Shown here: positions 32,452 through 33,869 of the stretch, one piece after another | Layout: each line of letters starts with the position of its first letter | Position numbering within the stretch: the stretch's first letter is position 1 | Origin: Sphaerisporangium sp. TRM90804 | Lineage (GTDB): Bacteria > Actinomycetota > Actinomycetes > Streptosporangiales > Streptosporangiaceae | Direction: 5' to 3' | Assembly (NCBI RefSeq): GCF_029846175.1 | Contig: NZ_JARWAC010000009.1 | Span: 1-64,000 of the forward strand | DNA: 64,000 nucleotides | Program-made: the position numbers and the translations under genes | Notes under the pieces: model-generated | The model's database searches: none | Seen by the model: only the letters and a program-made list of their open reading frames with translations | What the model was told of the DNA's origin: nothing

Positions 32452-32492
32452 GCCGCCCGGGAAACCGGTACCCGCCGCCGTGGGCGCGGTGC

Positions 32493-32498
32493 TAGCGT
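32493..32498 (+). promoter_or_regulatory. -10 element for the Thr leader peptide (leaderless)
   Basis: TAGCGT at 32493-32498 ends 7 nt before the leader ATG at 32506, so transcription would begin at or next to the initiation codon. The -35 region (about 32470-32475) is weak. No Shine-Dalgarno precedes the ATG. Confidence 0.45.
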
Positions 32499-32505
32499 TT
32501 TGGCC

Positions 32506-32556
32506 ATGAAGCGCGCCATGAGCACGACGACGCCGGAGAGTGTCCCGGCGCGCTGA
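32506..32556 (+). CDS. threonine-rich leader peptide of an attenuator
   Basis: This is a 16-codon ORF, MKRAMSTTTPESVPAR, with three consecutive ACG threonine codons at 32524-32532. It is followed by a perfect terminator-like hairpin and then by a threonyl-tRNA synthetase gene. The second ATG at 32518 is an alternative start and keeps the Thr run. Shortage of charged tRNA-Thr would stall the ribosome on the ACG codons. The arrangement is that of classical ribosome-mediated attenuation, here in front of a synthetase gene. Confidence 0.75.
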   Translation: MKRAMSTTTPESVPAR

Positions 32557-32602
32557 CTACCGTCTTAGTCCGAAGCCCCGGGGCGAGTGCCCCGGGGCTT
32601 CG
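32511..32602 (+). promoter_or_regulatory. Thr-responsive transcription attenuator (alternative RNA structures)
   Basis: Four pairings can be drawn. (a) GCGCGCC 32511-32517 with GGCGCGC 32547-32553 surrounds the Thr codons. (b) CGCCGG 32531-32536 pairs with CCGGCG 32545-32550 (protector). (c) UGUCCCGG 32541-32548 pairs with CCGGGGCG 32578-32585 (antiterminator, with G-U pairs). (d) The terminator stem spans 32571-32602. A ribosome stalled on the Thr codons would block (b) and allow (c), preventing (d). Completion of the peptide to the stop at 32554 would cover 32541-32548 and allow (d). Confidence 0.65.
32571..32602 (+). terminator. attenuator terminator hairpin before thrS2
   Basis: CGAAGCCCCGGGGC (32571-32584) and GCCCCGGGGCTTCG (32589-32602) form a perfect 14-bp stem with a GAGT loop. 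No U-run follows, as is frequent in actinobacteria. It lies between the leader stop codon and the synthetase ribosome-binding site (GAGGAG at about 32630). Confidence 0.75.
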
Positions 32603-32642
32603 CCGTGTGGTCACTCGCCCGCGCACCCGCGAGGAGACCACC

Positions 32643-33869
32643 ATGAACGACCACCGCAGGCTCGGCCGCGAGCTGGACCTGTTCGACACCGACCCGCTGA
32701 TCGGGGCGGGGCTGCCGTACTGGCTGCCCGACGGCGCGGCCGTTCGGCACGCCCTGGAGGAGTACGTCCGCGACGCCGAGCGCCGGGCGGGCTACCGGCA
32801 CGTGTACTCCCCCATCCTGGGCAAACGCGAGCTGTACGAGATCTCCGGCCACTGGTCCCACTACAGCGACGACATGTTCCCGCCGATGGACCTGGGCTCG
32901 GAGCAGGTCGTCCTGCGCCCGAGCCTGTGCCCGCACCACGCGCTGATCTACCGGTCGCGCGCCCACAGCTACCGCGAGCTGCCGCTGCGCATCGCCGAGC
33001 TGGGCGGCATGTACCGCTCGGAGCCGTCGGGGGTGCTCGGCGGGCTGAGCCGCGTGCGGGCGATCCAGCTCAACGACGCGCACATCTTCTGCACCCTGGA
33101 CCAGGTGGCCGCCGAGGCGCGCGCGGCCCTGGAGCTGATCGGCCGAGCCTACGCGGCGCTGGGCATCCGCCCGGCCCGCTACCGGCTCTCCCTTCCCGGG
33201 CCGGGCGGCAAGTACGTCGCCGCCCCCGAGATGTGGCGGCGGTCGCAGGCGCTGCTCACCGAGGTCCTGGACGGTTCGGGCGTGGCGTACGAGGCGGTCG
33301 AGGGTGAGGCCGCGTTCTACGGCCCCAAGATCGACGTCCAGATCGCCGACCCGGCCGGGCGCGAGACCACCCTGTCCACCGTCCAGGTCGACTTCCACCA
33401 GCCCGAGCGGTTCGACCTGCACTACATCGGGCCCGACGGCGACCGGCACCGTCCGGTCATGGTGCACCGCAGCGTCATCGGCAGCCTTGAGCGGGCCGTC
33501 GCCCACCTCATCGAGGCGCACGGCGGCGCCTTCCCGGCCTGGCTCGCCCCCACCCAGGTGGTGGTCCTGCCCGTCTCCGGCGCCGAGGGCGAGCGGGCCG
33601 CGGCGCTCGCGCGGCGCTGCGCCGCCCAGGGGCTGCGCGCGCGGGTGGCGGGCCCGGAGGAGGGCACCCTGGGCGCCCGGGTCCGGGCCGCGCGGCTGGT
33701 GCCCTACCAGGCGGTCATCGGCCCCAGCGAGGCCGCCCGCGACGAGGTCGCCCTGCGCCTGCGCGACGGCCGCCGCCTGGACGCCCAGCCCGCCGAAGAG
33801 GCGCTGCGCCGCATCGGCCTGCTCGTCGGGGCGCACCGCACCGACCTATGGGACAGCGCGCCCGCGTAG
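32643..33869 (+). CDS. thrS2: threonyl-tRNA synthetase paralogue lacking editing domains
   Basis: This class II synthetase would attach threonine to tRNA-Thr. Its 408 aa begin directly at the catalytic domain (NDHRRLGRELDLF) and end after the anticodon-binding domain; the TGS and editing domains (about 240 residues in typical ThrRS) are absent. The zinc ligands are all kept: Cys96 (PSLCPHH), His147 (NDAHIF) and His275 (VMVHRSVIGS). Motif 2 is RIAELGGMYRSEPSG...RVR. GAGGAG precedes ATG 32643. A Thr-codon attenuator lies upstream. A full-length ThrRS should exist elsewhere. It may serve as a resistant or stress copy; that is inferred. Confidence 0.9.
   Translation: MNDHRRLGRELDLFDTDPLIGAGLPYWLPDGAAVRHALEEYVRDAERRAGYRHVYSPILGKRELYEISGHWSHYSDDMFPPMDLGSEQVVLRPSLCPHHALIYRSRAHSYRELPLRIAELGGMYRSEPSGVLGGLSRVRAIQLNDAHIFCTLDQVAAEARAALELIGRAYAALGIRPARYRLSLPGPGGKYVAAPEMWRRSQALLTEVLDGSGVAYEAVEGEAAFYGPKIDVQIADPAGRETTLSTVQVDFHQPERFDLHYIGPDGDRHRPVMVHRSVIGSLERAVAHLIEAHGGAFPAWLAPTQVVVLPVSGAEGERAAALARRCAAQGLRARVAGPEEGTLGARVRAARLVPYQAVIGPSEAARDEVALRLRDGRRLDAQPAEEALRRIGLLVGAHRTDLWDSAPA

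Follow-up and report, generated by a model that had tools for sequence, protein, structure and literature searches.

A threonine leader peptide and co-evolving RNA pairings before an editing-less threonyl-tRNA synthetase paralog of actinomycetes: a proposed control at the ribosome-binding site

Why should a bacterium that already possesses a full-length threonyl-tRNA synthetase (ThrRS) carry a second, shortened one, and why should a short reading frame with three consecutive threonine codons, followed by a perfect hairpin, stand in front of it? The question is raised by a stretch of 64,000 nucleotides from Sphaerisporangium sp. TRM90804, which we call the window. An earlier note on this stretch had proposed an attenuator of the classical kind, with a terminator hairpin and an antiterminator, which switches the synthetase on when charged tRNA-Thr is scarce. 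The point considered here is the level at which such a leader would act, that is, whether on transcription or on translation initiation at the Shine-Dalgarno (SD) site.

The synthetase paralog and its leader peptide

The synthetase gene, thrS2, occupies positions 32643 to 33869 of the forward strand and encodes a protein of 408 amino acids (P0001) without TGS and editing domains. The product matches the ThrRS family TIGR00418 with 436.8 bits, and its Pfam content is the class II core and the anticodon-binding domain only; the Pfam search of the product found no TGS and no SAD/editing domain. The description as an editing-less synthetase starting at 32643 is thus borne out by the domains and by the window sequence. 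The closest solved relative is the ThrRS of S. aureus (387.7 bits, against 273.7 for the full-length E. coli enzyme), and the product is 42% identical to the full-length ThrRS that the same genome also encodes. On both grounds, thrS2 was possibly acquired and shortened rather than being a local duplicate. In the alignment the product keeps Cys/His/His at the positions aligned with the zinc ligands.

The leader reading frame (MKRAMSTTTPESVPAR plus stop) extends from 32506 to 32556 of the forward strand. Read directly from the window sequence, it has 16 codons, an ATG at 32506, a TGA at 32554-32556 and the three threonine codons ACG ACG ACG at 32524-32532, as the earlier note had it. Is such a frame translated, or is it there by chance? 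We picked leader starts 5-9 nt after TAnnnT, the frame not being used, and obtained 130 distinct orthologous leaders; the anchor pattern, which 144 of 148 loci match, already includes the last two Thr codons. Ten different distances, between 18 and 57 nt, separate the start from the second Thr codon, and in 129 of the 130 leaders the distance is a multiple of three, so that in these the Thr-Thr-Thr run continues the frame set by the start beside the -10 box. As its first codon the run uses ACG in 127 leaders, ACC in two and ACT in one. The single exception to the frame is L178, and here reading by eye shows a GTG, 7 nt downstream of the -10 box, that does share the frame of the run. Because of this agreement of start and frame, the Thr leader has, as judged from the sequences, the marks of translation and is not a product of chance. 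Conservation of the Thr run in relatives, which had been suggested as a check, is therefore found (129/130), and so is the leader reading frame with a run of codons for the regulatory amino acid that is characteristic of transcription attenuators. Feedback by charged tRNA-Thr would most likely be the signal. In two leaders (L151 and L158) the frame is shifted after TTTP, yet most of the RNA core is retained; hence, downstream of the Thr run, selection seems to act on the RNA rather than on the peptide.

The position of the promoter fits the same picture of a translated leader. An extended -10 box, TGcTAGCGT, lies at 32490-32498 on the forward strand, and the predicted transcription start at about 32505-32506 would make the mRNA leaderless. 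Among the 130 leaders, the distance from the -10 hexamer to the chosen start is 7 nt in 112, 6 nt in 17 and 5 nt in one, a spacing that is expected of leaderless mRNAs. In 139 promoters T is found at -3 in 83% and G at -2 in 94%, figures that lean upward since the choice of starts favoured TG. For S. lividans, thrL has been found leaderless by RNA-seq (PMC8079986).

How widely is this arrangement kept? A scan of genome_contigs gave at least 500 relatives of thrS2, of which the best 80 were retained. All 80 have the hairpin and 79 have the TTTP leader, the leader of the remaining locus (L083) being cut by the contig end. With the genomes of the genus and the class added, the set grew to 148 loci, of which 141 fit a strict core pattern. 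As to the other seven, L083, L154 and L167 are at contig ends, the upstream sequence of L152 is too short (its genome, G286, has a match of 104.5 bits to the covariance model R1, see below), and L013, L014 and L105 have a slightly different core. After dropping identical sequences, 135 are left. In the genus of the window, a near full-length paralog is present in 6 of 11 genomes. G002 and G004 contain pieces of the paralog only (residues 1-140 and 346-406 in G002, L026/L031; residues 312-384 in G004, L027), and in G002 the leader is intact despite the fragmentary paralog.

Model R1, applied to 394 genomes of the class, gave 58 matches of at least 60 bits and no other above 45 bits. Of the 62 class genomes that have the paralog, 58 carry a match immediately before it; of the four without an adjacent match, G302 and G162 are cut by contig ends, G098 is the case given below, and G210 has a TTTP leader (L179). 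Viewed from the side of the leader, 58 of 60 matches (the 58 strong ones and two weak ones, in G206 and G219, which are the paralog's own leader) are directly upstream of the paralog, the exceptions being G098, where the match precedes a paralog that the protein search matched only partly, and G244, where it lies at a contig end. Twelve of the 21 matches below 60 bits were looked at. Besides G206 and G219, two (L214, L218) precede a full-length thrS, two (L220, L221) precede a DAHP-synthase-like gene, and L210-L213, L217 and L219 look like unrelated terminators. High-scoring matches fall only before ThrRS genes. As a separate observation, L215 (G244:C18:79-196) is a 116-bit leader at a contig end, and no ThrRS can be read from the sequence after it; the Thr-leader cassette may be interrupted there.

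The neighbourhood is of a different nature. The gene terC, on the same strand, ends 120 nt upstream of the window hairpin; it flanks only 1 of 74 orthologous loci, and the MFS gene flanks none. Since the neighbouring genes are not kept, promoter, leader and thrS2 appear to behave as one unit. We therefore see practically no chance that the hairpin is simply the terminator of terC with an incidental reading frame beside it, given that leader, hairpin and segment E (see below) are kept where terC is not. Likewise, a T-box or another known RNA family is ruled out for the leader, because the Rfam search of the window gave no match at the gathering threshold.

The hairpin, its partners and the Shine-Dalgarno site

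The region 32500-32645 folds better than all 200 of its dinucleotide shuffles (z -4.6). The hairpin itself is exactly what had been described, a perfect stem of 14 bp at 32571-32602 of the forward strand, with arms C (32571-32584) and D (32589-32602) and the loop GAGT (32585-32588). In the orthologs the outer stem shows compensatory changes (nine on the same branch against a null mean of 3.0, P 0.0005 in a tree-based test), and the inner core (columns 64-71 and 77-84) is near-invariant on both strands.

Is it a terminator? The main rival to the reading that we prefer is that it is, with the hairpin ending transcription, the alternative pairing of its 5' arm serving as antiterminator and all pairings with the SD region being secondary. 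We consider this classical attenuator possible, though on balance we doubt it. The Thr leader is as this model wants it, and the variable outer stem around a core that is near-invariant on both sides suits it too. Long U-runs can be missing from actinobacterial terminators, which also speaks in its favour. The T-content at the hairpin is less favourable. In the window the longest T-run is 2, and the pattern scan of the window for a terminator found none. Within a stretch that takes in the final 6 nt of the stem and the 12 nt after it, 122 of 135 orthologs have no T-run longer than 2, eight reach 3 and five reach 4 or 5 (L097, L139, L145, L147, L148); if only the sequence after the stem is counted, 134 of 135 have no T-run longer than 2. 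With a looser measure, 4-5 T within some 8-nt window, 77 of 135 orthologs qualify. The U-tract is weak or absent in most orthologs, and the succession of a GC hairpin and a U-run is found neither in the window nor in those 122, whereas the hairpins of three aromatic leaders in this family (L220, L221, L301, described below) have 4-5 T in succession. Of the proposed terminator, then, the hairpin stands, being kept in the orthologs, while the canonical U-run does not, a T-run of four or more being present in 5 of 135 only. In S. lividans too, thrL is followed by one hairpin without a uridine-rich sequence (PMC8079986).

The other two elements of the classical scheme can be drawn as they had been proposed. 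Segment A, the protector strand CGCCGG at 32531-32536, may pair with CCGGCG at 32545-32550, and 32541-32548 may pair with 32578-32585 in eight pairs including two G-U, which would be the antiterminator. In alignment A1 (88 rows from unique sequences, chosen for diversity and length) segment A is invariant in 88 of 88 rows. Segment B (GTCCCGGCG, 32542-32550, forward strand), for which A and the 5' arm of the hairpin are alternative partners, is near-invariant, and it is largely kept even in L151 and L158 despite their shifted reading frame. As neither the protector strands (invariant) nor the antiterminator strands (near-invariant) vary enough to be informative, covariation speaks neither for nor against the antiterminator for which the earlier note had asked it. 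Further, the hairpin looks far more stable than the antiterminator as drawn, so that B:C would need to win kinetically.

The covariation lies elsewhere. The hairpin loop is complementary to a downstream GGTCACTCGCC, and the segment that contains it, E, is complementary to the SD region. We define C' (GGCGAGTG, 32582-32589) as the loop with its flanks, E (GTGGTCACTCGCC, 32607-32619) as a putative anti-Shine-Dalgarno and F (GCGAGGAGACCAC, 32629-32641) as the segment that holds the SD sequence GAGGAG at 32631-32636, all on the forward strand; E may pair either with F or with C'. In A1, 94.3% of the C':E cells are paired and five of the eight pairs show double changes; the double-changed cells number 24 against a shuffle mean of 6.2 (kinship ignored), and in slid registers pairing drops to at most 58%. 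Among 135 sequences, with kinship ignored, the C'xE duplex is stronger with the own partner than with that of another species (-12.66 vs -10.87 kcal/mol, p 4e-12), and so is ExF (-17.16 vs -15.54, p 9e-11). The control C'xF, loop against SD, gives no sign of co-evolution in the same 135 (-5.24 vs -5.17, p 0.62). Natural C'/E variants include GAAC/GTTC (L175), GCAC/GTGC (L157), AAGT/ACTT (L049 and kin) and GGGT/ACCC (L109, L148); some sequences retain C-A mismatches.

Tests that take the tree into account are more reserved. For C':E there are 9 same-branch compensations where a conservative null gives 5.4 on average (P 0.067) and either slid register gives none, and the corresponding count for E:F reaches no significance. 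Among coincident changes, 9 of 13 are compensatory on the four loop pairs vs 3 of 23 off the diagonal, and one of the four loop pairs alone passes 0.05, E being mis-anchored in some rows of this last comparison. The folding calculations are mixed as well. With the 5' part of C removed, C':E is at most 3 kcal/mol from the best fold in 85 of 135 sequences. When the hairpin is allowed to form, the SD has a mean accessibility of 0.39, vs 0.35 with the E region shuffled, so there is no unusual masking of the SD by this measure; the mean is 0.48 with C':E enforced, and accessibility with the hairpin falls below the shuffled-E value in only 48 of 134 sequences. In our opinion, the C':E and E:F pairings look selected, and their thermodynamic effect is a proposal.

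Two features expected of a translational attenuator are nevertheless indicated by these comparisons: the SD lies in a conserved helix with an upstream segment, as the co-evolution of E with F suggests, and there is a competing pairing, C':E, that could free it. The existing covariation points to control at the SD site, and in our preferred reading the earlier idea that hairpin-terminator and antiterminator form the switch would give way to the pairings C':E and E:F, whose co-evolution the classical attenuator leaves unexplained.

One could read the same pairs differently, as an H-type pseudoknot in which loop and E pair while the hairpin stays intact, so that the pseudoknot, and not the disruption of the hairpin, sets access to the SD. 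The pairs that changed on both sides are mostly those of the four loop bases, as this would predict. However, the full C':E pairing requires the top pairs of the GC stem to open, the near-invariant B strand is left with no clear role, and the response would have a sign that is unusual for a synthetase; we regard the pseudoknot as quite improbable.

The reading that we prefer, with a probability of roughly 55%, is ribosome-mediated attenuation in response to charged tRNA-Thr, with the initiation of thrS2 translation as its main target. The leaderless mRNA would start at or near the leader ATG. When Thr-tRNA is ample, the ribosome would reach the stop codon, A:B could form and the C:D hairpin would form; E would then pair with F, the SD would be covered and thrS2 expression would be low. 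When Thr-tRNA is short, a ribosome stalled on the ACG run would cover A and leave B free for the 5' arm C; with B:C formed there would be no hairpin, C' would be released and take E, F would be open and expression high. A transcriptional layer, through read-through or early termination, may come on top. We infer that the ribosome stalls, that B pairs with C, in which direction the switch works and which physiological signal it follows. Of the original idea that the synthetase is switched on by scarcity of charged tRNA-Thr, the Thr-run leader before an editing-less ThrRS gene stands, but control by a canonical terminator finds no support in most orthologs, which lack the U-run.

A related leader before full-length thrS, and the signal it may read

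Two weak R1 matches, L214 and L218, come from genomes that lack the paralog and are TTTP leaders of full-length thrS. Is the design thus not peculiar to the paralog? We surveyed 70 of 112 full-length thrS places in 110 genomes, taken with few omissions from the top of a ranking by similarity to the G251 enzyme; the sample thus leans to G251 relatives. A leader was recognised by three Thr codons and a nearby TAnnnT, and two-Thr leaders would be missed. By this measure, 13 of 42 genomes without the paralog have a Thr leader on full-length thrS vs 0 of 28 with the paralog (Fisher p 0.00095, with kinship ignored and the sample leaning to G251 relatives). So far, then, a Thr leader on the main thrS and one on the paralog appear to be mutually exclusive.

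The full-length thrS leaders have another hairpin sequence (CCCCGGGAGCGATCCCGGGG and kin), in two cases (L241, L247) with a T-rich tail. The loop is again complementary to a downstream E, and E can pair with an SD-like site in the 11 that could be scored. In these 11, C'xE scores -13.1 with the own partner, -11.9 across leaders and -8.6 after shuffling; the values for ExF are -16.5, -15.5 and -14.7. Of the ten leaders in which the ATG after the SD-like site was tested, seven have it in the frame of thrS and three (L225, L226 and L272) do not, and it is not certain that this ATG is the thrS start. A second model, R2, built from ten full-length thrS leaders alone, finds the window leader at 49.4 bits (E 1.3e-8) as the sole match at E 0.001 in that genome. 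This recovery argues for common descent of the two leader types, and we count the shared plan in favour of the relay. Seven other places given by R2 (L297-L303) yielded no further thrS leader.

A few observations were made alongside. In most of the 13 full-length thrS leaders, a TCGATAGCATC-like stretch lies between the leader region and the thrS start; it may be a second -10 box for basal expression that bypasses the leader. At the start of the reverse strand, L299 has a short reading frame MSTQRFYGHRIPVPARV, a GC hairpin and a T-containing tail upstream of a gene. Finally, L220, L221, L301 and L302 are leaders rich in Phe/Trp/Tyr codons (for example MQRKFWRFYGYRP...) with a hairpin, which in L220, L221 and L301 is followed by 4-5 T in a row and in L302 is less clear. 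The gene after them is presumably a DAHP synthase, and these leaders are probably an aromatic attenuator.

If the Thr run senses Thr-tRNA, what would make Thr-tRNA scarce, or could the leader sense something else? The promoter bears on this. A GAAA box resembling that of WblC/WhiB7 lies at 32461-32464 (forward strand), 32 nt before the -10 box. In the orthologous promoters, GAAA[AT] occurs within -44..-22 of the -10 box in 66 of 139 (shuffles: mean 1.0, maximum 5) and GAA[AT] in the same interval in 100 of 139 (mean 7.0, maximum 14), the box beginning mostly 31-33 nt upstream of the -10 box. These promoters thus carry a box that resembles a WblC/WhiB7 site. We take the thrS2 of S. coelicolor to be SCO3778. 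That gene is a threonyl-tRNA synthetase in PMC10771440, and thrS2 is among the WblC-activated genes of S. coelicolor in PMC7157823, which gives the site as GAAAWY; the GAAAC of the window is a weak form of it.

It is conceivable, therefore, that the leader mainly senses ribosome-targeting antibiotics as a part of the WblC programme, a role that may coexist with the Thr-tRNA relay. Apart from the promoter box and the activation by WblC in S. coelicolor, it is of relevance that chloramphenicol stalls ribosomes best after Ala, Ser or Thr (PMC12121999). On the other hand, the Thr run occurs specifically before ThrRS genes, be it the paralog or the main one, which fits sensing of Thr-tRNA better; we hold a principally antibiotic-sensing leader to be improbable. 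Somewhat less doubtful, and still speculative, is a combined view in which the Thr leader and a five-helix relay (A:B / B:C / C:D / C':E / E:F) form a portable cassette that would carry a stall signal to the SD, placed either on the main ThrRS or, in genomes that have one, on the editing-less backup. Under a promoter of the WblC/WhiB7 type it might read both Thr-tRNA shortage and peptidyl-transferase antibiotics, and the cell would swap to a less accurate ThrRS when translation is under stress.

Known systems and what the leader may mean

The leader itself is already in print for one species. The thrL-thrS of S. lividans TK24 (PMC8079986) is orthologous, because two Streptomyces genomes carry the very same peptide, MKRVRPFLETTPGFVPAR, before a thrS2 of 77% identity; like the window leader it is leaderless, with one hairpin without a uridine-rich sequence. 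The differences are that it has two Thr codons only, as leaders of the S. lividans type do, and that the accessible text of that paper presents it as a single-species prediction, with no conservation, covariation or SD pairing.

Among other systems, the LEU element of actinobacterial leuA (PMC1262725) likewise combines a leader peptide, pseudoknot-like alternatives and an SD in a helix. In that element the partner of the SD is the codon run itself; in the thrS2 leader the supported partner is a separate segment, E, downstream of the hairpin, and a pairing of the codon run with the SD is not what we find. In toiL-topAI of E. coli (PMC12121999), the proposal is that a ribosome stalled on an upstream reading frame unmasks the ribosome-binding site, Rho-dependent termination being a second layer; that system is not amino-acid specific, and the predicted partner of the ribosome-binding site is the upstream frame itself. 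The leuS and trpS attenuators of Streptomyces have leader peptides before synthetase genes as well, described with terminator or hairpin structures, U-rich stretches being reported for leuS/leuL2 and, in the accessible parts of these papers, not for trpL2 or thrL (PMC1262725, PMC8079986). As to an inducible second ThrRS with impaired editing, Anabaena T1/T2 (PMC4787780) is a parallel; its induction is by low zinc, and the part of the description available mentions no leader.

The earlier note had set this leader against the T-boxes that more often control actinobacterial synthetases. No T-box match is present here, and the contrast is weaker than implied, because actinobacterial synthetase leader peptides have already been described for leuS, trpS, thrS and alaS (PMC1262725, PMC8079986). 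What appears to be new is the conserved pairing that reaches the ribosome-binding site of thrS2. The accessible literature, in which subscription journals are scarcely covered so that absence is unproven, gave no description of the SD relay, its conservation or the exclusivity.

Leaders of actinomycetes are often called transcription attenuators even when no U-rich stretch follows, S. lividans thrL being an example. The natural compensatory variants of thrS2 leaders make a translational relay testable. Further, one regulatory design is found on two different ThrRS genes, in a manner that is so far mutually exclusive. An editing-less synthetase tied to an apparent antibiotic-stress promoter would bear on the question of how antibiotic producers translate under attack.
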